NCBI RefSeq assembly: GCF_018069705.1
Contig: NZ_CP072943.1
Span: forward strand, 1,861,453-1,925,452
DNA: 64,000 nucleotides
Direction: 5' to 3'
From: Aminithiophilus ramosus
GTDB taxonomy: Bacteria > Synergistota > Synergistia > Synergistales > Aminithiophilaceae
Numbering within the stretch: position 1 is the stretch's first letter; each line of letters opens with the position of its first letter. The notes under the pieces were generated by a model. The model was not told the origin of the DNA. It saw only the letters and a program-made list of their open reading frames with translations, and made no database searches. The position numbers were made by a program, and so were the translations under genes. Positions 39,811 to 55,465 of this stretch are shown piece after piece.

Positions 39811-41633
39811 TGCCGTCTCCGTTCGCTTCGGAAAGAACGGAAAGCTCCACATCGCGGCCGTCGCCCTTCCCGGGAGCATTATCGTCTCGGCTGATTCGGA
39901 AAGAAGGGCAAGTCCCACGTCGCGGCTCTTGCCCTTCCTGGGAGCGTGGGCATCCTGCCCGCGCCCGCCCCGAAGGGGCGGTGGGTTCCCTGCACGTCTC
40001 CGCCATCGCCGAGGTGACGTCGTTCGAGTCGGGAGACCCTGCGGGACGAGAAATCCGTCCCGCGCGCCGCCAGGATGGCCGCGCTCCCAGCAGGGGCAAA
40101 ACCTCAAGCTCCACGTCGCGGCCGTTGCCCTTCCCGGGAACACTATCGTCTCGGCCGCTTCGGAAGGAACGGAAGACTCCACGTCGCGGCTCTTGCCTCT
40201 CCTGGGAGCGTGGGCATCCTGCCCGCGCCCGCCCCGAAGGGGCGGTGGGTTCCCTGCACGTCTCCCTCGTTGCCGAAGTGACGTCGTTCAAGTCGGGAAA
40301 CTCTGCGGGACGAGAAATCCGTCCCGCGCGCCGCCAGGATGGCCGCGCTCCCAGCAGGGGCAAAACCTCAAGCTCCGCGTCGCGGCCGTCGCCCTTCCCG
40401 GGAGCATTATCATCTCGGCCGCTTCGAAAGGAACGGAAGACTCCACGTCGCGGCTCTTGCCTCTCCTGGGAGCGTGGGCATCTTGCCCGCGCCCGCCCCG
40501 AAGGGGCGGTGGGTTCCCTGCACGTCTCCCTCGTTGCCGAAGTGACGTCGTTCAAGTCGGGAAACTCTGCGGGACGAGAAATCCGTCCCGCGCGCCGCCA
40601 GGATGGCCGCGCTCCCAGCAGGGGCAAAACCTCAAGCTCCGCGTCGCGGCCGTCGCCCTTCCCGGGAGCATTATCATCTCGGCCGCTTCGAAAGGAACGG
40701 AAGACTCCACGTCGCGGCCGTTGCCTCTCCTGGGAGCGTGAGCATCTTGCCCGCGCCCGCCCCGAAGGGGCGGTGGGTTCCCTGCACGTCTCCCTCGTTG
40801 CCGAAGTGACGTCGTTCGAGTCGGGAAACTCTGCGGGACGAGAAATCCGTCCCGCGCGCCGCCAGGATGGCCGCGCTCCCAGCAGGGGCAAAACCTCAAG
40901 CTCCACGTCGCGGCCGTTGCCCTTCCCGGGAACACTATCGTCTCGGCCGCTTCGGAAGGAACGGAAGACTCCACGTCGCGGCTCTTGCCTCTCCTGGGAG
41001 CGTGGGCATCCTGCCCGCGCCCGCCCCGAAGGGGCGGTGGGTTCCCTGCACGTCTCCCTCGTTGCCGAAGTGACGTCGTTCAAGTCGGGAAACTCTGCGG
41101 GACGAGAAATCCGTCCCGCGCGCCGCCAAGATGGCCGCGCTCCCAGCAGGGGCAAAACCTCAAGCTCCGCGTCGCGGCCGTCGCCCTTCCCGGGAGCATT
41201 ATCATCTCGGCCGCTTCGAAAGGAACGGAAGACTCCACGTCGCGGCTCTTGCCTCTCCTGGGAGCGTGGGCATCTTGCCCGCGCCCGCCCCGAAGGGGCG
41301 GTGGGTTCCCTGCACGTCTCCCTCGTTGCCGAAGTGACGTCGTTCAAGTCGGGAAACTCTGCGGGACGAGAAATCCGTCCCGCGCGCCGCCAGGATGGCC
41401 GCGCTCCCAGCAGGGGCAAAACCCTCCGTCGCAGCCGTGTTTTCCTGGGAGCGTGGGCATCCTGCCCGCGCCCGCCCCGGAGGGGCGGTGGGTTCTGCAC
41501 GTTACCTCCATCGCCGAGGGGACGTCGTTCGAGTCGGGAGACCCTGCGGGACGAGAAATTCGTCCCGCGCGCCGCCAAGATGGCCGCGCTCCCAGCAAGG
41601 GCAAAACCCCTCCGCCGCAGGCTGAACGGATCT
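39811..41633. repeat. 264-bp tandem repeat array, about seven units, non-coding
   Basis: Units recur at exact 264-bp spacing: ATGGCCGCGCTCCCAGCAGG is at 40075, 40339, 40603, 40867, 41131 and 41395, the second unit base differing slightly in places. The first unit (from about 39811) is diverged and the last, after 41395, is shortened to about 185 bp. Each unit contains several hairpins: GCGGGACG/CGTCCCGC, GGGCAtccTGCCC, and CGCCCCgaaGGGGCG. Because 264 is a multiple of three, all frames tend to stay open on both strands, giving long but spurious reading frames. There are no ribosome sites and no recognisable domains. Confidence 0.92.
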
Positions 41634-43293: not shown

Positions 43294-44421
43294 CTAGCTT
43301 TTCAGAAGTGCCCGCAGGGCCTCGACGACGCGATCGACATCGCCGTCGGCCATGGCGGGGAAAAGGGGGAGGGAGATCTCCCCTCCGTAGGCCGCCTCGG
43401 CACGGGGGAAATCGCCTTCGGCAAGACCGAACCGGCGCCGGTAATAGGGGTGGAGGTGAACGGGCAGGTAATGGACCTGAACACCGATCCCCGCCTTCCG
43501 CAACCCCTCGAAAATCTCCCTCCTCCGCGAGGAGGGCAGCCGCACCGGATAGAGATGGTAGGCATGCCCCTTGTGCCGGGGAGGCAGCGTCACCCTCTCA
43601 AGACCGCCCAGAGCTTCGTCGTAGAGATGGGCCAAGTGACGTCTGCGGGCCACGAAGGCGTCGAGACGCCTCATCTGGCTCAACCCCAGGGCAGCCTGCA
43701 GATCGGTGAGGCGATAGTTATAGCCCAAATCGATCATCTCTCCGTACCAGGGCCCCTCGTCGGGACGCTCCATCCGATCAGGATCTTTCGTGATGCCGTG
43801 ACTGCGGAAAAGGCGGAGCTTCCGGGCGAACGTCCCGTCGTCGGTGACGACCATGCCTCCCTCTCCCGTCGTCACGTGCTTGACGGGATGGAAGCTGAAG
43901 ACGGTCATATCGGCCTCGGAGCCTATCTTGCGAGAGCCCCTCTCGCCTCCCAAAGCGTGACAGCCGTCTTCGACGATCACCGCGTCGGGCGCGGCCCGAC
44001 GACAGCCCTCCACGTCGGCAGGGAAACCGGCATAGCTGACGGGAGCGACGACTTTCGTCCGTTCCGTCACCTTTTCGGCCGCGCAGGCGGCGTCGAGGCA
44101 GAGCGTCTCCGGAGAGATGTCGGCAAAGACGGGACGTGCCCCGAGATAGACGGCTGCATTGGCCGTGGCGGCAAAGGTCAGGGGCGGCACGATCACCTCG
44201 TCCCCCGCGACGACGCCCGCCGCGTGGTAGGCCCCGTGAAGGGCCGCCGTCCCGTTGCAGAAGGCCACGGCATGGGCGGCGCCGACATAGCCGGAGACGG
44301 CCGCCTCGAAGGCCTCGATGGCGGGGCCCTGAGTCAGCCAGTCGCCCTTCATCGCCGACACCACGGCCGCCACATCATCGTCGTCGATCCACTGATGCCC
44401 ATAGGGCAGATAGGACGTCAT
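43294..44421 (-). CDS. pseC: PseC-type sugar aminotransferase
   Basis: A 375-residue PLP enzyme of the DegT/DnrJ/EryC1/StrS family, consistent with UDP-4-amino-4,6-dideoxy-N-acetyl-beta-L-altrosamine transaminase. The PLP lysine is in FSFHPVKHVTTGEGGMV (near 184), with VEDGCHALGG (near 150) and FCNGTAALHGAYHAAG (near 54). It acts after PseB on the 4-keto sugar. It is the last gene of the interrupted Pse unit and overlaps pseG (ATGA). The assignment to Pse rather than another 4-aminosugar pathway rests on the neighbours pseB, pseI and pseG. Confidence 0.88.
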   Translation of the reverse strand: MTSYLPYGHQWIDDDDVAAVVSAMKGDWLTQGPAIEAFEAAVSGYVGAAHAVAFCNGTAALHGAYHAAGVVAGDEVIVPPLTFAATANAAVYLGARPVFADISPETLCLDAACAAEKVTERTKVVAPVSYAGFPADVEGCRRAAPDAVIVEDGCHALGGERGSRKIGSEADMTVFSFHPVKHVTTGEGGMVVTDDGTFARKLRLFRSHGITKDPDRMERPDEGPWYGEMIDLGYNYRLTDLQAALGLSQMRRLDAFVARRRHLAHLYDEALGGLERVTLPPRHKGHAYHLYPVRLPSSRRREIFEGLRKAGIGVQVHYLPVHLHPYYRRRFGLAEGDFPRAEAAYGGEISLPLFPAMADGDVDRVVEALRALLKS

Positions 44422-45554
44422 CGACGCCCTCCTCTCTCGAAAAAGGCCGCAAGAGCCGCGGCGGCCGCCAATGCCCCCCTGGGGTCGACGACGGCCCCTT
44501 CCCGAGCCCGACAGGGCCTTCGGGCCAGGGTCGTCTCCCCCCGCGCCACCGGATGGTCCGTTCCTTCCTCCGTCACAACAGTATTTTCCCCGCCAAGGGG
44601 AAGAGAAAGGACCGCTTCGAGGTCACCGCGACCGAAGGAGCCCCAAAAGCCCAGATCGTGCCCCAGCCCTTTCGCCTGGATGGCTTCGCCAATCCCTCTC
44701 TGGTTATCGGCTACCTGAAAGACCGCTAAAGGCCTACCCAGAGCCAGGGCCTCGTAGGCCGTCACGCTGGAGGTGCAGATCACCCTTCCCGACCGGGCCA
44801 TTCTTTCCAGGAAATCGTTTGGAGCCTCCAGAAGAGCCACGTTCTCTTTTCCGTCCGCCGCGGCGCGGCAGCGCCGCCGGAGCGACGCGTCGACGAGGGG
44901 ACCCAAAACGGCTGAAAGAGGCGGCCAGCTCCCGTCCCACCAGCGAAGGATACTTTCCGTCGCTCCGGCCATATCGGAGGCCCCCGCCACGAAAAGAACG
45001 TCCTCCCCCGAAAGGAGCGCTCCCGAATCGATCTGATCGGCCCAGAAAGCCACCTCGGGGCGCAGGAGAGCGTAGGCGGGACCGAGAAGACGGAGGCGAT
45101 CGGAGGAAAACTCGTAAGGCCATCTTTCGGCGTCGAGATTGTAGTTCAGCAGAGCCGTCGCGTAACGCTCGACGGGACGATCGCGGAAATCATCGATCAC
45201 AACCAGAGGCAGCCGTTCGGCGACCCAGGCGAGCCAGGGAGAAGAGGCCCTGTAGGAATCGACGACGACAAAATCGACGCCGTCGAAAAGAGGAACCAAA
45301 GACTCCCTTACGCCAGAACCCATCGAAAAGGGATCGGCAAGGGGGAAAAAACGGGACATACCGACGGCAGGCCTCCCTCTCGCCCCGCTCAGGGACAAAG
45401 CCCCCTCCTCGTTAAGGACGAAACCGACATCGACGCCGCAGCCCTCAAGAGCCGAAGCCAGAGAAAGACAACGGGAAAGATGCCCTCCACCGATGGAGGG
45501 ACCTCCGTGGGTGATGAAAAGAGCGCGCCGATCAAACCCACCACGAAACGTCAG
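44418..45554 (-). CDS. pseG: PseG-type UDP-sugar hydrolase, probable CTG start
   Basis: A 378-residue GT-B-fold hydrolase that removes UDP from the diacylated altrose derivative before the PseI step. The essential glycine loop ITHGGPSIGGGHLSRCLSLA lies upstream of the first conventional start (TTG 45398), so translation must begin earlier. The frame contains no ATG, GTG or TTG there. A CTG at 45554 overlaps the stop of the upstream Rpn gene (CTGA) and lies 8 nt after GGAGGGGG. The C-terminal CTSSVTAYEALALGRPLAVF loop is intact. The native start may have been lost when the Rpn array was inserted. Confidence 0.78.
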   Translation of the reverse strand: MTFRGGFDRRALFITHGGPSIGGGHLSRCLSLASALEGCGVDVGFVLNEEGALSLSGARGRPAVGMSRFFPLADPFSMGSGVRESLVPLFDGVDFVVVDSYRASSPWLAWVAERLPLVVIDDFRDRPVERYATALLNYNLDAERWPYEFSSDRLRLLGPAYALLRPEVAFWADQIDSGALLSGEDVLFVAGASDMAGATESILRWWDGSWPPLSAVLGPLVDASLRRRCRAAADGKENVALLEAPNDFLERMARSGRVICTSSVTAYEALALGRPLAVFQVADNQRGIGEAIQAKGLGHDLGFWGSFGRGDLEAVLSLPLGGENTVVTEEGTDHPVARGETTLARRPCRAREGAVVDPRGALAAAAALAAFFERGGRR

Positions 45555-46495
45555 CTCTTCTCCCCCTCCGATTCCGCCAGGGCACGCACCTGCTCCAGGG
45601 GAAGGTCCAGGACGTCGGCCACCTGGGCGGCGTCGAAGCCGCGGGAGAGCATCTTCCGGGCGCTCTCAAGCATCGCCTCCATACGACCCTCCTCGCGGCC
45701 TTCCATGCGGCCTTCCTTCCTGATCTTCCTGATCTCGCGCTGCACGTAGGTCACCATCTTCTCCGCCTCCTCTTCGCTCGCGATTTCTTCGGCCATTCCG
45801 CTCAGGTCCACTCCCTCACGCTTCGCCAGGATCGTCAGGTAGCCCGCGAAATGGCGCGACAGGATCTCTCGCTCCTCCAGCGGAAGGAGCTTGCGGTACT
45901 CCAGCAGACGACGCACCGTCATGGACAGGTCCTCTTCCTTCGACGGGTTGGCCAGGTAGAGCAGACCTCCCAGCGCGTCCCGGAAGGCCAGGAGCTCCTC
46001 CGACGTCCGCTTGCCCAGGACCATGAGGTGGTAGCTGAAGTTGGGCACGAATCCCGCGAAGGCATCCCCGTTTTCGACCTTCTCGACGAAGGTCGACGCC
46101 ACCGTCCATTTCTGCATTCCGTCGTAGAAGACCACGGGGATGACGGGCGGCAGCAGGTAGCTCTTCCTCCTCGATTTCGACCCCGCCTCTTCCACGCAGC
46201 GCTCCCAGATGCGCACCATGTAGGCCAGCAGGCGGAAGGGCATGAGGTGGTCCACGCTCGATTGGTGCTCGACGAGGATGTAGACGTAGGTCTCCTTCCC
46301 TCCGCGGCGGATCCGGTAGAGGACGTCCGATTCCCGCGCGACGAGTTCCTGGGAGATGAAGGAGACGTTCTCCAGTTCGATGTCCTCCAGGCCCACCCCC
46401 TCCAGCGTCCCGAAGCGGAGAAAGCGCCTCAGAAACTGGAAAAAGAGGACTTTGTCGCTCAGAAAGTTGCGGAAGGCTCGGTCCTTGTCTCCCAT
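45551..46495 (-). CDS. Rpn-family PD-(D/E)XK nuclease, copy A
   Basis: A 314-residue protein of the Rpn / TIGR01784 family of recombination-promoting nucleases. The nuclease core has D57 (ESDVLYRI), E76 and Q78 (ILVEHQSS). A helical middle region and a C-terminal tail follow, with three GRxE repeats and one SARK heptad. The tail ends EGEKS, while the other copies end EGEKD, because the last codons differ where homology stops against pseG. ATG 46495 is preferred over TTG 46498 by spacing from GGAGGGGG. Rpn proteins are linked to RecA-independent recombination and, in some hosts, to phage defence. Confidence 0.88.
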   Translation of the reverse strand: MGDKDRAFRNFLSDKVLFFQFLRRFLRFGTLEGVGLEDIELENVSFISQELVARESDVLYRIRRGGKETYVYILVEHQSSVDHLMPFRLLAYMVRIWERCVEEAGSKSRRKSYLLPPVIPVVFYDGMQKWTVASTFVEKVENGDAFAGFVPNFSYHLMVLGKRTSEELLAFRDALGGLLYLANPSKEEDLSMTVRRLLEYRKLLPLEEREILSRHFAGYLTILAKREGVDLSGMAEEIASEEEAEKMVTYVQREIRKIRKEGRMEGREEGRMEAMLESARKMLSRGFDAAQVADVLDLPLEQVRALAESEGEKS

Positions 46496-46667
46496 CAAAG
46501 CCCCCTCCTTCTGTACCTGTACCGCGCGGCACTCGCTTGTCTCAACCTCGGCCCCGGCGGCCGTCTGCTTTTATGATGCAGCGTCGAGGCGGCGAGGTCG
46601 CTTTTGCAAGCCCCAAATCCCTGGGACCCTTTTTATGTGCGCACGACACAGGGACTTCTCCCGGGGG

Positions 46668-46938
46668 TCAGTCCTTTTCCCCCTCCGATTCCGCCAGGGC
46701 ACGCACCTGCTCCAGGGGAAGGTCGAGGACGTCGGCCACCTGGGCGGCGTCGAAGCCGCGGGAGAGCATCTTCCGGGCGCTCTCAAGCACCTTCCGGGCG
46801 CTCTCCTGCATCGCCTCCTGACGACCCTCCTGACGACCTTCCATACGGCCCTCCTGACGGCCCTCCTGGCGGCCTTCCTTCCTGATCTTCCTGATCTCGC
46901 GCTGCACGTAGGTCACCATCTTCTCCGCCTCCTCTTCG
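46668..46938 (-). pseudogene. C-terminal fragment of Rpn gene, fragment B
   Basis: Contains only the last ~89 codons of the Rpn gene, from EEEAEKMVTYVQREIRKIRK to the stop, with five GRxE repeats and a doubled SARK heptad. Homology ends at 46938, where a non-Rpn spacer begins. The frame continues into the spacer to 47156 but nothing there looks coding. Its tail differs in repeat number from the full copies. Confidence 0.88.
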
Positions 46939-47266
46939 GCAACGGCGGCCTGCGGGAACCGTTCGCCCCTTGCGGGACGGAGCGAGCAGGGATGCCAGCA
47001 GGAGCGGGACGGGACTACCGGCCCTCCCGGTTCGCGCCCTGAAAGCCGCCGCTTCGACGACGAAGGCCGGGAGCGAGAAAAGCCCCTCGCCCCATCGGGC
47101 CGCGCTCCCGGCAGGGGCAAAGGCGTTCTGCCGTTGCGACGACTCCCCCGTCGCAAGCTCCCGGGTAGCTCCCGGACGGACGAGGAGACTCGCCCCGACG
47201 AAACCGGCCAGACCTCGCAGCAGCCCCTTTCGGGAAGGGCCTCGATCTTCAGGAGGGACTCCGGGG
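46939..47266. repeat. first-type spacer of the Rpn array, with relic of the 264-bp repeat
   Basis: A 328-bp non-coding spacer, almost the same as 48754-49080. Bases 47100-47121 (CCGCGCTCCCGGCAGGGGC) match the ATGGCCGCGCTCCC segment of the 264-bp repeat with one change, tying this array to the dispersed repeat family. Confidence 0.75.
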
Positions 47267-48316
47267 TCAGTCCTTTTCCCCCTCCGATTCCGCCAGGGCA
47301 CGCACCTGCTCCAGGGGAAGGTCGAGGACGTCGGCCACCTGGGCGGCGTCGAAGCCGCGGGAGAGCATCTTCCGGGCGCTCTCAAGCACCTTCCGGGCGC
47401 TCTCAAGCATCGCCTCGTTGCGGCCTTCCTGACGACCTTCCATACGGCCTTCCTGGCGGCCTTCCATACGACCCTCCTGACGGCCCTCCATACGCCCCTC
47501 CTCGCGACCCTCCTCGCGGCCTTCCAGGCGGCCTTCCTTCCTGATCTTCCTGATCTCGCGCTGCACGTAGGTCACCATCTTCTCCGCCTCCTCTTCGCTC
47601 GCGATTTCTTCGGCCATTCCGCTCAGGTCCACTCCCTCACGCTTCGCCAGGATCGTCAGGTAGCCCGCGAAGTGGCGCGACAGGATCTCACGCTCCTCCG
47701 GCGGAAGGAGCTTGCGGTACTCCAGCAGACGACGCACCGTCATGGACAGGTCCTCTTCCTTCGACGGGTTGGCCAGGTAGAGCAGACCTCCCAGCGCGTC
47801 CCGGAAGGCCAGGAGCTCCTCCGACGTCCGCTTGCCCAGGACCATGAGGTGGTAGCTGAAGTTGGGCACGAATCCCGCGAAGGCATCCCCGTTTTCGACC
47901 TTCTCGACGAAGGTCGACGCCACCGTCCATTTCTGCATTCCGTCGTAGAAGACCACGGGGATGACGGGCGGCAGCAGGTAGCTCTTCCTCCTCGATTTCG
48001 ACCCCGCCTCTTCCACGCAGCGCTCCCAGATGCGCACCATGTAGGCCAGCAGGCGGAAGGGCATGAGGTGGTCCACGCTCGATTGGTGCTCGACGAGGAT
48101 GTAGACGTAGGTCTCCTTCCCTCCGCGGCGGATCCGGTAGAGGACGTCCGATTCCCGCGCGACGAGTTCCTGGGAGATGAAGGAGACGTTCTCCAGTTCG
48201 ATGTCCTCCAGGCCCACCCCCTCCAGCGTCCCGAAGCGGAGAAAGCGCCTCAGAAACTGGAAAAAGAGGACTTTGTCGCTCAGAAAGTTGCGGAAGGCCC
48301 GGTCCTTGTCTCCCAT
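47267..48316 (-). CDS. Rpn-family PD-(D/E)XK nuclease, copy C (long tail)
   Basis: A 349-residue copy, the longest, because the C-terminal tail has ten GRxE tetrads and a doubled SARK heptad. Otherwise it is practically identical to the copy at 49081-50046, and both have LLPPEEREIL where copy A has LLPLEEREIL. The nuclease residues D57, E76 and Q78 are retained, so the protein may be active. The 12-bp coding repeats look prone to slippage. Confidence 0.88.
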   Translation of the reverse strand: MGDKDRAFRNFLSDKVLFFQFLRRFLRFGTLEGVGLEDIELENVSFISQELVARESDVLYRIRRGGKETYVYILVEHQSSVDHLMPFRLLAYMVRIWERCVEEAGSKSRRKSYLLPPVIPVVFYDGMQKWTVASTFVEKVENGDAFAGFVPNFSYHLMVLGKRTSEELLAFRDALGGLLYLANPSKEEDLSMTVRRLLEYRKLLPPEEREILSRHFAGYLTILAKREGVDLSGMAEEIASEEEAEKMVTYVQREIRKIRKEGRLEGREEGREEGRMEGRQEGRMEGRQEGRMEGRQEGRNEAMLESARKVLESARKMLSRGFDAAQVADVLDLPLEQVRALAESEGEKD

Positions 48317-48491
48317 CAAAGCCCCCTCCTTTCTGTACCTGTACCGCGCGCGGCGCTCGCTTGTCTCAACCTCGGTCCCGGCGGCCGTCTGCTTTTATGA
48401 TGCAGCGTCGAGGCGGCGAGGTCGCTTTTGCAAGCCCCAAATCCCTGGGACCCTTTTTATGTGCGCACGACACGGGGGCTTCTCCCGGGGG

Positions 48492-48753
48492 TCAGCCCTT
48501 TTCCCCCTCCGATTCCGCCAGGGCACGCACCTGCTCCAGGGGAAGGTCGAGGACGTCGGCCACCTGGGCGGCGTCGAAGCCGCGGGAGAGCATCTTCCGG
48601 GCGCTTTCAAGCATCGCCTCGCGACGGCCTTCCTGGCGGCCTTCCATACGACCCTCCTGACGGCCCTCCTCGCGGCCTTCCAGGCGGCCTTCCTTCCTGA
48701 TCTTCCTGATCTCGCGCTGCACGTAGGTCACCATCTTCTCCGCCTCCTCTTCG
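48492..48753 (-). pseudogene. C-terminal fragment of Rpn gene, fragment D
   Basis: Same fragment type as at 46668-46938, with six GRxE repeats and a single SARK heptad. Homology to the full gene begins at the same base of the coding sequence in both fragments, so they arose by duplication of one truncated unit. No start codon belongs to it. Confidence 0.87.
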
Positions 48754-49080
48754 GCAACGGCGGCCTGCGGGAACCGTTCGCCCCTTACGGGACGGAGCGG
48801 GCAGGGACGCCAGCAGGAGCGGGACGGGACTACCGGCCCTCCCGGTTCGCGCCCTGAAAGCCGCCGCTTCGACGACGAAGGTCGGGAGCGAGAAAAAACC
48901 TCGCCCCATCGGGCCGCGCTCCCGGGAAGGGCAAAGGCGTTCTGCCGTTGCGACGACTCCCCCGTCGCAAGCTCCCGGGTAGCTCCCGGACGGACGAGGA
49001 GACTCGCCCCGACGAAACCGGCCAGACCTCGCAGCAGCCCCTTTCGGGAAGGGCCTCGATCTTCAGGAGGGACTCCGGGG

Positions 49081-50046
49081 TCAGTCCTTTTCCCCTTCCG
49101 ATTCCGCCAGGGCACGCACCTGCTCCAGGGGAAGGTCGAGGACGTCGGCCACCTGGGCGGCGTCGAAGCCGCGGGAGAGCATCTTCCGGGCGCTCTCAAG
49201 CACCTTCCGGGCGCTCTCCTGCATCGCCTCCTGACGGCCCTCCTCGCGGCCTTCCAGGCGGCCTTCCTTCCTGATCTTCCTGATCTCGCGCTGCACGTAG
49301 GTCACCATCTTCTCCGCCTCCTCTTCGCTCGCGATTTCTTCGGCCATTCCGCTCAGGTCCACTCCCTCACGCTTCGCCAGGATCGTCAGGTAGCCCGCGA
49401 AGTGGCGCGACAGGATCTCACGCTCCTCCGGCGGAAGGAGCTTGCGGTACTCCAGCAGACGACGCACCGTCATGGACAGGTCCTCTTCCTTCGACGGGTT
49501 GGCCAGGTAGAGCAGACCTCCCAGCGCGTCCCGGAAGGCCAGGAGCTCCTCCGACGTCCGCTTGCCCAGGACCATGAGGTGGTAGCTGAAGTTGGGCACG
49601 AATCCCGCGAAGGCATCCCCGTTTTCGACCTTCTCGACGAAGGTCGACGCCACCGTCCATTTCTGCATTCCGTCGTAGAAGACCACGGGGATGACGGGCG
49701 GCAGCAGGTAGCTCTTCCTCCTCGATTTCGACCCCGCCTCTTCCACGCAGCGCTCCCAGATGCGCACCATGTAGGCCAGCAGGCGGAAGGGCATGAGGTG
49801 GTCCACGCTCGATTGGTGCTCGACGAGGATGTAGACGTAGGTCTCCTTCCCTCCGCGGCGGATCCGGTAGAGGACGTCCGATTCCCGCGCGACGAGTTCC
49901 TGGGAGATGAAGGAGACGTTCTCCAGTTCGATGTCCTCCAGGCCCACCCCCTCCAGCGTCCCGAAGCGGAGAAAGCGCCTCAGAAACTGGAAAAAGAGGA
50001 CTTTGTCGCTCAGAAAGTTGCGGAAGGCCCGGTCCTTGTCTCCCAT
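49081..50046 (-). CDS. Rpn-family PD-(D/E)XK nuclease, copy E (outermost)
   Basis: A 321-residue copy with three GRxE tetrads and a doubled SARK heptad; the nuclease residues are retained. Its upstream DNA differs from that of the other two copies beyond about 50112 and contains TATCAT, so this may be the founding gene with its own promoter. ATG 50046 follows AGGAGGGGG. Confidence 0.88.
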   Translation of the reverse strand: MGDKDRAFRNFLSDKVLFFQFLRRFLRFGTLEGVGLEDIELENVSFISQELVARESDVLYRIRRGGKETYVYILVEHQSSVDHLMPFRLLAYMVRIWERCVEEAGSKSRRKSYLLPPVIPVVFYDGMQKWTVASTFVEKVENGDAFAGFVPNFSYHLMVLGKRTSEELLAFRDALGGLLYLANPSKEEDLSMTVRRLLEYRKLLPPEEREILSRHFAGYLTILAKREGVDLSGMAEEIASEEEAEKMVTYVQREIRKIRKEGRLEGREEGRQEAMQESARKVLESARKMLSRGFDAAQVADVLDLPLEQVRALAESEGEKD

Positions 50047-50913
50047 CAAAGCCCCCTCCTTTCTGTACCTGTACCGCGCGCGGCGCTCGCTTGTCTCAAC
50101 CTCGGCCCCGGCGACCGCTTTTCACTATGATACCCCGAAGAATTGCCCTTTTACCCGTCCTTTGGCGGGAGCTTCCTTCCGTTATCGATAGGGGTCTCGG
50201 GATTGGGAATGCGTCTCGACGTGGGCAAGGAGGTGATCATCCTCCCCAGAGACCCTGAGACGGACGAGTCTGTCGGCGAGGACCGTCGATTTCGATCGGA
50301 AGGAGGCGATGCGGCGAAGTGCCTGTCGGGGAATGAAGCGAGGACCGTTCCCGCCGAGGGCACCGGTAAGAGAGGGGAAGAAGAACTCCGGGGACCGACG
50401 AGGGATCGCAGGGCACCCTTCAAAACTCTGTCGAAATCGGCGGCAAGGCGCGGGGGAACGCCTTTTCCGGGGCGATTCCGTCGTGGCAACGCGCCCTTCC
50501 GTGAATCCGCGGGCTCGTCGGGACCACTGCCACAGGACGAGCCAGTCCGAGGCCCGTTTCGATGTCGCCGGTGCGGGTTCGAGGCCGACCCCCCGGCTTT
50601 CCGGCTTCCTCATGGCCGGGACCGACGACACGGCCATCCCTTCCTGCCTGTGGGTCGGAAGCCTTTGTTCAAGGAACTTTCTCCGAAGACCGAACAGGAC
50701 CTTCTCGATCTCATTATACCCCGCAATCGGAAGGGGGCGGGCCACAACAGGCCACGAGACATCGCCGTCGATGGAAACGATCAAGACATCCGGGCGACAT
50801 AGCCGAAGAGAGATCAATCCTTTGTTGATTAATGCCTGTAACGCCGCGGCAGCTCTAAGGAGGTGTTTTTCCACAAAACGGAGCACAGAGCTTATCAACA
50901 AAACGACCAAATT
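50047..50913. other. 867-bp gap between Rpn array and formyltransferase, no clear gene
   Basis: Open frames exist on both strands (50143-50802 plus, 50182-50910 minus) but I see no domain, ribosome site or coding signature. The minus frame contains a stretch (DVLIVSIDGDVSW) that could be a decayed gene. GC content drops from about 50800 onward and stays low through the formyltransferase. Confidence 0.5.
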
Positions 50914-50937
50914 GCCTTATTTTAAATCAAAATAGGC
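50914..50937 (-). terminator. terminator-like hairpin at the end of the formyltransferase
   Basis: On the minus strand GCCTATTTT, a short loop, then AAAATAAGGC with one bulged base, followed by T-rich sequence. It overlaps the stop codon. It would end the pseF-pseB-pseI-formyltransferase unit before the Rpn array. Confidence 0.55.
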
Positions 50938-51707
50938 TAATCGCCCGAAGTCTCTTCGGCCGAACGAATATTGATATCCACATAATAACGGCGTCCCGCA
51001 CAAACAAAATAGGCATTGCGATAGGGAGGAAAAGTAAGCGCCCTAAGGCGATCGAGGAAGACGCCCAGAGAAGCAATTTCGTCGAGATCAAGGCGACAGA
51101 GCGCCTTCATATCCCGAGTCTTATGTTCGCTTCCTCCATTTTCCATCGGATACCCTTCGATGGCCCCCTCTCTCAGGGCGGGCCAAACCGTCCTCATCAA
51201 CGTGACGGACGCCTCCTCCAAGCGTTCATAGAGACTGGCACCCGTATCACCGGGATCGACAGGAACATCCAAAGAAGCGACGATCTCTCCCCTATCGAGC
51301 TCCTCCGTCATGCGATGCAGCGTCACTCCTGCCGGAGATCGTTCCACAATGGCCCAGACGTTGGGGTTGCTTCCTCGACACCACGGCAACAATCCCGTGT
51401 GAAGATTAAGCGCTTCAGGAAGCATATTCAACAGAACGGGGGGGATAACGTAACCGAAGTTAACCGAGAGAAGCAGTTCAATCCCTGCTTCTCTCAGGAG
51501 ACCAGTCACTTCCTCACAAGGACGCTCTTTCCAACGTATCACCCTCGAACGGGGAAAGAGAGAAAGGATCTCGCCGTCAAAACGCGCTTCCGAAGAGGGG
51601 TGGAGGAGGAGAAATTCCGGCTCGTCTCCCGCCTCTGCGATCACGCGACCGCAACGATAGCCGTTACGGTTATTGAGAGCCAAGGCGAAAGGACGTTTTC
51701 CCCCCAT
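50937..51707 (-). CDS. sugar N-formyltransferase-like protein
   Basis: A 256-residue protein of the formyltransferase fold (related to Fmt and ArnA). The catalytic Asn and His are in NLHTGLLPWCRGSNPNVWAI (near residue 110), with the Asp in LDRGEIV. It would use 10-formyl-THF to formylate an amino sugar. The gene has clearly lower GC than its neighbours, suggesting transfer. It follows pseI directly: the pseI stop is 51710, ATG 51707 is preferred and GTG 51713 is possible. In place of the missing PseH it could formylate N4 of the PseC product. This role is inference. Confidence 0.82.
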   Translation of the reverse strand: MGGKRPFALALNNRNGYRCGRVIAEAGDEPEFLLLHPSSEARFDGEILSLFPRSRVIRWKERPCEEVTGLLREAGIELLLSVNFGYVIPPVLLNMLPEALNLHTGLLPWCRGSNPNVWAIVERSPAGVTLHRMTEELDRGEIVASLDVPVDPGDTGASLYERLEEASVTLMRTVWPALREGAIEGYPMENGGSEHKTRDMKALCRLDLDEIASLGVFLDRLRALTFPPYRNAYFVCAGRRYYVDINIRSAEETSGD

Positions 51708-51709
51708 CG

Positions 51710-52741
51710 TCACACCATCTCCCACGTGATCCACTGATCGGACGCAATGTCGACCTTGACGGGCCGACCCAGCACCAGAGGCAGAAACTTGGGCCTGATG
51801 CCGTAGCCGGGGCGCTTGCAGACGACCATCGCCTCCGTCAGGACCGTCCCGGCGGGAATGTCGCAGGCTGCATGGAGACTGCGGCGGGCCTTTTCGTAAA
51901 ACTCCCGTTCCTCGACGAAGGGACCCAGCTTGCGGCCGTCGCCCATGGCCGATTCGATCTCGCGACAGGAGCGTACCAGATCGGCCAGTTCGTCGGGCTC
52001 GATGGCGAAGGGATGGTCGGGCCCCGCCATCGTCCGATCGAGAGTGAAATGTTTTTCGATGACGGAAGCCCCCATGGCGACGGCGGCCAGGGAGACGTGA
52101 ATGCCCCGGGTATGGTCCGAAAGCCCCGTAGGAACGCCGAAAGCCCGCGAAAGCGTCTCCATGGCCCGAAGGTTCATGATATGGGCCGGAGCGGGGTAGA
52201 CGGAGGCGCACTGCAAGAAGACCACCCGCTCGTTGCCGACCTCCCGACAGGCCAGGTAGGCGTCTTCGATCTCCTCCATCGTCGCCAGTCCCGTCGAGAT
52301 GATGAGGGGCTTGCCCTTGGAGGCACAGTGCCGGATCAGGGCGAGGTCGACGAGTTCGAAAGAGGCGATCTTGAAAAGATCGCTCACCTCGTCCAGTTCG
52401 TCGACGGCCCGATGGTCGAAGGGCGTGGCGAAAAAGAGGATCTTCCTCTCGTCACAGTAACGCCTCAGCTCGGGCAGCCAGGAGCGGGGCGTCTCGATCT
52501 CCCTGATGAGAGTGAAAAGGTCCTTTTCATAGCCGGAATGACGGGGGGTGCGCCTCGAATAAAGCCCTTCGGCGCTGTAGATCTGGAACTTGACGGCGTC
52601 GGCCCCGGCGGCGACGGCGGCGTCGATGTGGGCCTTGGCCAGGTCGAGAGAGCGGTTGTGATTGGCCCCCACCTCGGCGACGAGGAAAGAGGGATTGCCC
52701 GGACCGATGGAACGTCCGCAAAGACCGATCTCGCCGGCCAT
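51710..52741 (-). CDS. pseI: pseudaminic acid synthase
   Basis: A 343-residue NeuB-family enzyme that condenses the 6-deoxy-altrose sugar with phosphoenolpyruvate to a nonulosonic acid. The TIM-barrel core has FLVAEVGANHNRSLDLAKAH and KIASFELVDLALIRHCA, with metal ligands in IEKHFTLDRT. A C-terminal SAF (antifreeze-like) domain covers about 285-343 (AACDIPAGTVLTEAMV). PseI versus NeuB or LegI is decided by the neighbours pseB, pseC and pseG. It starts one base after pseB ends. Confidence 0.9.
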   Translation of the reverse strand: MAGEIGLCGRSIGPGNPSFLVAEVGANHNRSLDLAKAHIDAAVAAGADAVKFQIYSAEGLYSRRTPRHSGYEKDLFTLIREIETPRSWLPELRRYCDERKILFFATPFDHRAVDELDEVSDLFKIASFELVDLALIRHCASKGKPLIISTGLATMEEIEDAYLACREVGNERVVFLQCASVYPAPAHIMNLRAMETLSRAFGVPTGLSDHTRGIHVSLAAVAMGASVIEKHFTLDRTMAGPDHPFAIEPDELADLVRSCREIESAMGDGRKLGPFVEEREFYEKARRSLHAACDIPAGTVLTEAMVVCKRPGYGIRPKFLPLVLGRPVKVDIASDQWITWEMV

Positions 52742-54861: not shown

Positions 54862-55465
54862 AACATGGAAGGAAACCCCTCCGCCCCTTCGGGGCGGGCG
54901 CGGGCAGGATGCCCACGCTCCCAGGAAAGGCGACGGGAGTGCACGGGGAAACCCTTCCGCCCCTCCGGGCGGACGCGGGCAGGATGCCCACGCTCCCAGG
55001 AAAGGCGACGGGAGTGCACGGGGAAACCCTTCCGCCCCTCCGGGCGGACGCGGGCAGGATGCCCACGCTCCCAGGAAAGGCGACGGGAGTGCACGGGGAA
55101 ACCCTTCCGCCCCTCCGGGCGGGCGCGGGCAGGATGCCCACTCTCCCAGGAAAGGCGACGGGAGTGCACGGGGAAACCTTTCCGCCCCTCCGGGCGGGCG
55201 CGGGCAGGATGCCCACGCTCCCAGGAAAGGCGACGGGAGTGCACGGGGAAACCCCTCCGCCCCTTCGGGGCGGACGCGGGCAGGATGCCCACGCTCCCAG
55301 GAAAGGCGACGGGAGTGCACGGGGAAACCCTTCCGCCCCTTCGGGGCGGGCGCGGGCAGGATGCCCACGCTCCCAGGAAGGGCGACGGGGACGCACGGGG
55401 GAAACCCTCCGCCCCTTCGGGGCGGGCGCGGGCAGGATGCCCACGCTCCCAGGAAGGGCGACGAC
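54862..55465. repeat. ~75-bp tandem repeat array, about eight units, non-coding
   Basis: Units recur at 75 bp (GTGCACG at 54939, 55014, 55089, 55164, 55239, then 76 bp to 55315). Each contains CCGCCCCTTCGGGGCGG or its variant (a hairpin with TTCG loop) followed by GCGGGCAGGATGCCCAC and CTCCCAGG. This is the reverse complement of the core of the 264-bp array (TGGGCATCCTGCCCGCG with CGCCCCGAAGGGGCG). The 75-bp unit keeps reading frames open on both strands and produces artefact proteins such as ERGHPARARPEG-type repeats. Confidence 0.92.

Follow-up and report, generated by a model that had tools for sequence, protein, structure and literature searches.

The window examined here is a stretch of 64,000 nucleotides (nt) from Aminithiophilus ramosus (RefSeq assembly GCF_018069705.1, contig NZ_CP072943.1, positions 1,861,453 to 1,925,452 of the forward strand), and the element in question is a tandem array of Rpn nuclease genes that occupies window positions 45551 to 50046 on the minus strand, interleaved with shorter C-terminal copies of the same gene and set in a putative pseudaminic-acid operon. 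Rpn genes yield a second product, RpnS, from an internal start, and it serves as antitoxin to the full-length nuclease, RpnL (Zhong et al., PMC10327210); these names are used throughout. Read in the direction of transcription, from 50046 to 45551, the order is rpnL-a, spacer A, S6, spacer B, rpnL-c, spacer A, S5, spacer B and rpnL-e, followed by pseG. The genome is one contig of 3,108,337 bases (C1) and includes six full genes of the array rpn family, three in the array, two at C1:2374101-2376517 (locus II) and one at C1:3076683-3077708. In the list below, full genes are counted from their ATG, one codon 5' of which each has a TTG, and fragments are given from the RpnS start to the stop; lengths of products are in amino acids (aa).

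49081..50046, minus strand: rpnL copy 1 (La, rpnL-a), full-length Rpn nuclease with 3 GRxE tetrads and a double SARK heptad; PF04754 (E=1.1e-36) and TIGR01784; D57, E76 and Q78 kept
49081..49308, minus strand: predicted intragenic rpnS of La, 75 aa, ATG with AGGAGG at 8 nt before it
48754..49080, minus strand: spacer A, copy 1, the native 3' flank of rpnL, present also after rpnL-g of locus II (C1:2373771-2374093)
48746..48753, minus strand: 8-bp microhomology CGAAGAGG at the junction of spacer A and fragment, overlapping the rpnS ribosome-binding site, from comparison of the junction with native spacer A and the gene interior
48492..48734, minus strand: stand-alone rpnS S6, 80 aa, 6 tetrads, single heptad; RpnS profile A3 matches RpnA-S (PDB 7TH0), E=3.9e-6
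48317..48491, minus strand: spacer B, copy 1, the region upstream of an rpnL; its last ~70 nt are also found upstream of La
47267..48316, minus strand: rpnL copy 2 (L10, rpnL-c), 10 tetrads, double heptad
47267..47578, minus strand: predicted intragenic rpnS of L10, 103 aa, internal start
46939..47266, minus strand: spacer A, copy 2, same spacer type as copy 1
46668..46919, minus strand: stand-alone rpnS S5, 83 aa, 5 tetrads, double heptad; junction microhomology at 46938-46931
46496..46667, minus strand: spacer B, copy 2, same spacer type as copy 1
45551..46495, minus strand: rpnL copy 3 (Le, rpnL-e), 3 tetrads, single heptad
45551..45757, minus strand: predicted intragenic rpnS of Le, 68 aa, internal start

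Along the direction of transcription the GRxE tetrads number 3, 6, 10, 5 and 3 and the SARK heptads 2, 1, 2, 2 and 1; spacer A, which leads from a full gene to a fragment, measures ~327 nt, and spacer B, from a fragment to a full gene, ~172-175 nt. The layout proposed in the initial annotation, namely three full-length Rpn genes alternating with two C-terminal fragments of identical boundary, was borne out to the base, and its two spacer types recurring in order, its tetrad counts (3, 10 and 3 in the full genes, 5 and 6 in the fragments) and its single or double heptads were also correct. The three proteins are, as it had claimed, near-identical outside the tail: the 738-nt body 5' of the tail includes 4 variable sites among the three window genes, and 9 over all 15 copies from two strains. 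The Rpn bodies are ~99 % identical, while all of the tails differ. Two other views of the array were rejected. The spacers are not foreign cargo, as spacer A is the rpnL 3' flank and spacer B the rpnL upstream region, and an autonomous or transposon-like unit was dismissed when no inverted repeats of at least 40 nt were found in 44500-51500 (shorter ones were not searched).

The full genes are, by sequence, Rpn family nucleases, and are predicted to be RpnL of the toxin-antitoxin type. In profile searches they match PF04754 (YhgA-like) with 126-127 bits (cut-off 21) and TIGR01784 with 75-85 bits (cut-off 52.1). Residues D57, E76 and Q78, which had been reported as retained by all copies, are indeed so. 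They are active-site residues of the PD-(D/E)XK type, and across 40 Rpn proteins from Synergistota D57 never varies, while conservation of E76 and Q78 is 90 % or more.

The fragments had been described as truncated pieces. Their boundary stood, but what was missed is that they carry the RpnS ribosome-binding site and start, and for this reason a stand-alone antitoxin gene is better as the primary reading. Each fragment starts at GAAGAGGAGGCGGAGAAGATG, which is the RpnS ribosome-binding site plus start, and CGAAGAGGAGGCGGAGAAGATG opens each fragment and recurs inside each full gene, with AGGAGG 8 bases before the ATG in all copies. A 22-mer across the fragment boundary occurs in five exact copies in the window and in none in shuffles. 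The GRxE repeats begin 16 residues into RpnS, the RpnS sequence profile matches RpnA-S (PDB 7TH0) at E=3.9e-6, and structure prediction gives the fragment one long helix and then two short helices. The reading frames of the stand-alone genes are intact in all copies from the window strain and from a sister strain, L-13 (see below). Judged by their sequence, the fragments are stand-alone rpnS genes, and the array is made up of tandem rpnL/rpnS modules plus stand-alone rpnS, a kind of gene known singly from Escherichia coli, where one follows rpnE and another follows rpnC (PMC10327210).

The internal start was examined across the phylum using 75 Synergistota rpn genes filtered to no more than 70 % identity, by scoring in-frame starts in the C-terminal part and shuffling synonymous codons within each gene. 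A start with a Shine-Dalgarno match of at least 5 nt was present in 66 of the 75 genes versus 37.7±3.8 in the shuffles, and the excess remained with matches of at least 6 nt (35 versus 14.3±2.9) and at least 7 nt (17 versus 3.7±1.6). Because the protein is held constant in the shuffles, this excess suggests that internal initiation has been selected for at the DNA level.

Stand-alone rpnS-like genes adjoin rpnL in other Synergistota too. One locus (L068:1390-2846, genome G109) includes one rpnL and then, within a few bases, a row of three stand-alone rpnS-like genes in tandem; they are 58, 62 and 55 aa long, and each starts with MKLLMRDSLNFEAG. Another (L155:1964-2584, genome G050) has a tandem pair of stand-alone rpnS-like genes, 74 and 78 aa long, which are one tetrad apart and adjoin a large methyltransferase-like gene (a neighbour named by eye). 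Among phage proteins, the PHROG family phrog_5416 (66 positions) matches the RpnS tail alone of S6 (48492-48734), which hints at stand-alone RpnS-like proteins in phages. With tblastn, the window RpnS (S6) had no matches in the phage collection and the E. coli RpnES had matches in eight of its records, of which two are short, unannotated and, we would guess, possibly host DNA.

The fragments probably arose by recombination at a short microhomology. Spacer A after the second gene of locus II continues as GCCGAAGAGGGAGTTC, whereas in the array the sequence crosses into the interior of the gene at CGAAGAGG, and this boundary is observed directly. The junction is an 8-bp match that sits on the RpnS ribosome-binding site, and hence the duplicated piece kept a complete start signal. 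In the event we envisage, the 8-bp match in the 3' flank of an rpnL would have recombined with its counterpart within the gene to give a stand-alone rpnS. A microhomology junction is also what functionless by-products of illegitimate recombination would leave behind, and the failure to find any sigma-70-type promoter in the array is in keeping with such duplication debris. However, the break lies exactly where a complete ribosome-binding site and start survive, the frames are intact in every copy from both strains, and other Synergistota share the architecture, as does E. coli, which produces the RpnES protein (PMC10327210); we therefore consider debris an unlikely account of the fragments.

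The same-species strain L-13 (CP074691.1, Synergistota bacterium strain L-13, a single contig) allowed the array to be compared base by base. In the cleanly aligned outer stretches, the flanks of its array are 99.7-99.85 % identical to those in the window. The L-13 array reads La S6 L10 S5 L11 L4 S3 L10 S5 Le (6 rpnL and 4 rpnS) and the window array La S6 L10 S5 Le (3 and 2), with La through S5 and spacer B identical in the two. The array in L-13 is exactly 4,762 bp longer, and the surplus fits between two identical blocks of 1,821 bp, L10-A-S5-B, so that a single homologous exchange would interconvert the two arrays; since the window strain lacks the L11, L4 and S3 tails, it is simpler to assume a deletion in its lineage than the reverse. 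While the differing unit number is observed, it is from the exact breakpoints that we infer growth and shrinkage of the array by homologous recombination. The same fixed array in related strains had been named in the initial annotation as the outcome that would speak against it; the comparison was run on one strain, L-13, and the array differs. The array Rpn has no match in the other two genomes of the genus, and only the sister strain was informative.

A unit number misassembled in one of the strains could mimic this result, given that the 4,762-bp difference falls between perfect 1.8-kb repeats, where assemblies collapse, and that the window strain also has the shorter version of two tandem arrays nearby. 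Both genomes, however, are single contigs in each of which four 16S ribosomal RNA genes are placed, which argues against a collapsed assembly, and a neighbouring 75-bp array differs too much between the strains (~88-90 % alike) to be a simple collapse. An artefact of this kind appears very improbable.

Tails were also compared between the strains. Seven of the eight orthologous tails have the same repeats, and the remaining one, at gene f of locus II, has 13 tetrads in the window strain and 12 in L-13, one unit having gone from a homogeneous run (Q2 Q2 Q2 to Q2 Q2). A second Rpn-like family is present in two near-identical copies, L017 and L018 (G000:C1:2438199 and 2501406), with counterparts L087 and L088 in L-13. 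The GMEK tetrads of this family number 4 and 4 in the window strain and 3 and 1 in L-13, and the changes here and at locus II f are slippage-like. The S6 tail equals that of IIIh less four units, and the join is marked by a hybrid GRQE. In L-13, rpnL11 (L11) has spacer B directly 3' of it, as expected if an rpnL tail had crossed over with an rpnS tail, and two sampled E. coli strains without a stand-alone rpnES have an rpnE with an rpnES-type 3' end. Single-nucleotide polymorphisms in the body, at 46, 98 and 530-531, are common in patches to loci I and II; on the strength of few sites, this suggests ectopic conversion.

The initial annotation had proposed that the fragments are recombination donors that change the tail length of the full genes. 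Change in the array (6+4 versus 3+2) and in tails elsewhere in the genome bears part of this out, as do the fusion footprints in rpnL11 of L-13 and in the two E. coli rpnE, but donation from fragment to full gene between the two strains was not supported: no donor-recipient pair and no demonstrable transfer of a tail from a fragment to a full gene were found on comparing the window strain with L-13. A system of gene-conversion cassettes, in which stand-alone copies are retained as donors that re-tail the full genes, would account for tails that all differ on bodies ~99 % identical, as well as for rpnL11 directly before spacer B, the fused rpnE and the patches common to loci I and II. Yet repeats are unchanged in seven of the eight orthologous tails and the changed one looks like slippage, no pair was identified, and an intramolecular crossover destroys the donor, all of which leaves cassettes doubtful, if worth keeping in mind.

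What the stand-alone RpnS might act on would depend on tail length. The number of four-residue repeats just after the RpnS start varies, and adding one repeat to RpnC breaks pairing, which is restored when the repeat is added to both partners (PMC10327210). In the window array, no stand-alone RpnS equals the adjacent RpnL in tail length. Repeat numbers are likewise unequal in E. coli, for rpnE and rpnES in all 13 strains read (7 haplotypes) and for rpnC and rpnCS in all 6 strains (by length comparison of 5 distinct pairs), and at seven other Synergistota loci nine neighbouring pairs are 1-3 whole tetrads apart, including one rpnL with three rpnS of different lengths. Taken with the published pairing rule, this mismatch means that the small RpnS should not neutralise the neighbouring RpnL. 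The notion that the stand-alone copies supply extra cognate antitoxin is hence disfavoured: they do lie next to an RpnL, and their product is the antitoxin domain, but their tail lengths are unlike those of the adjacent genes and a single extra repeat abolished RpnC neutralisation (PMC10327210), so that a role in dosage is highly unlikely.

It is possible that a stand-alone RpnS acts in trans on another gene, and as orphan antitoxins these proteins would counter Rpn toxins encoded at other loci, in other strains or on plasmids and phages that enter the cell, rather than those of their neighbours. Intact open reading frames and a tail length unlike the neighbour's in every stand-alone RpnS closely examined (E. 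coli, Synergistota and the array) are in line with this, and S6 equals RpnL-g of locus II (IIg) in length, as the L-13 S3 equals Le. Against this, the number of matches, zero, is barely below that of chance pairing, avoidance of matching tails not being significant within E. coli (in permutations, no match is expected with P = 0.39 in rpnE and 0.60 in rpnC), and S5 matches no RpnL of the array family in either strain. We regard orphan antitoxins as a possible but somewhat improbable role.

The reading we prefer, with a probability of roughly 0.78, is that of a tandem Rpn toxin-antitoxin array composed of RpnL with internal RpnS and of stand-alone rpnS. Each full gene would encode the nuclease toxin RpnL and, from the internal start, its own antitoxin RpnS, which is the C-terminal tail. 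The GRxE repeats would lengthen the first RpnS helix, and their number, going by the published RpnC experiment, would decide which RpnS pairs with which RpnL. All eight tails in the window genome differ in sequence, and the near-identical toxins are thus probably insulated from one another by tail length; the stand-alone RpnS are probably not cognate to their neighbours. The long identical blocks would let the array expand and contract by homologous recombination, and crossover between an rpnL tail and that of a downstream rpnS, of which the footprints are seen, would produce an rpnL with a new tail and a matching internal antitoxin. Toxicity of RpnL and neutralisation by RpnS are here inferred, and from the family the role is likely to be anti-phage toxin-antitoxin defence whose specificity changes fast.

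Several points weigh against this reading. The RpnL model (mean predicted local distance difference test score 74, from a shallow alignment) found no PDB fold match at E below 0.001, and the fold search with RpnS, also modelled from a shallow alignment, returned nothing significant, with 7TH0 only at E=2.3. That no sigma-70-type promoter was found makes expression of the stand-alone genes less certain, the length matches of S6 and S3 mean that 'non-cognate' is not absolute, and the pairing rule comes from one E. coli experiment in which one repeat was added to RpnC (PMC10327210). A further and more speculative step, which we put forward as rather unlikely, is that stand-alone rpnS are kept as spare specificity modules: a crossover would switch the repeat number of the toxin and carry the matching antitoxin along, because the antitoxin lies within the same stretch, and the array would be a store of tails against a phage-encoded inhibitor, with neighbour mismatch selected.

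The array lies among putative genes for pseudaminic acid, of which PseB and PseC score above their NCBIfam cut-offs and PseG and the PseI/NeuB-type synthase match below theirs. Two of them, one on either side of the array, are:

51710..52741, minus strand: PseI/NeuB-type synthase, upstream of the array, TIGR03569/TIGR03586, below curated cut-offs
44418..45554, minus strand: pseG, the next gene after the array; its only plausible start is CTG at 45554, which overlaps the TGA of rpnL copy 3

No ATG, GTG or TTG precedes the conserved N-terminus of PseG, and besides this CTG there is only an ATC further up, so that translation of pseG may begin at the CTG or be coupled to that of rpn. In a relative of the same genus, pseI, pseH, pseG and pseC lie together. 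A formyltransferase-like gene (named by eye) is found at 50937-51689; at the corresponding place, between pseI and pseG, the related genome G001 carries an acetyltransferase-like gene. Two further tandem arrays lie in the window, one of 264 bp at 39842-41423 (6.0 copies; 7.7 in L-13) and one of 75-76 bp at 54871-55463 (7.9 copies; 12.8 in L-13), and they have a common GC-rich core that is repeated elsewhere in the genome.

The original Rpn study left open repeat expansion and the origin of the extra rpnS genes (PMC10327210). Two closely related complete genomes here catch steps of the process: the loss or gain of 4,762 bp between 1.8-kb repeats, the loss of a single repeat at another locus, a microhomology junction that sits on the ribosome-binding site of the antitoxin, and the footprints of tail fusion. 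The mismatch between RpnS and neighbour in all closely read pairs from E. coli and Synergistota makes the role of stand-alone rpnS testable, and the synonymous-shuffle test extends the evidence for an intragenic antitoxin start to a whole phylum.

The features of known Rpn systems, an internal start with a ribosome-binding site, four-residue repeats that vary among strains, an RpnS related to RpnA-S and a separate rpnS next to rpnL, are all found here. The closest counterparts are rpnE with rpnES (ypaA) and rpnC with rpnCS of E. coli (PMC10327210), in which, as in the array, a full Rpn gene is followed by a separate C-terminal antitoxin gene, tetrad number varies and gene fusion occurs. However, those consist of one full and one small gene ~10-70 bases apart, whereas here the genes alternate, 3+2 or in L-13 6+4, and are ~345 bases apart. 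Tandem rpn arrays also occur (PMC10327210), and they are, like this one, tandem direct duplications without terminal inverted repeats (none of at least 40 nt in this one); relative to the description there, the unit here differs in that an antitoxin gene standing alone is part of it, and two strains of unequal unit number allow a base-by-base comparison. RpnA-S itself (PDB 7TH0) is matched by profile by the window RpnS, for which a long and two short helices are predicted; its chain has 49 aa, compared with 68-103 aa in the window RpnS, whose first helix carries the tetrad repeats. Outside the family, the number of four-residue TAEL repeats alters the specificity of the type I restriction enzymes EcoR124I and EcoR124II (cited in PMC10327210), as repeat number does in Rpn, but there the repeats set the length of the DNA spacer, while in Rpn they set protein pairing.

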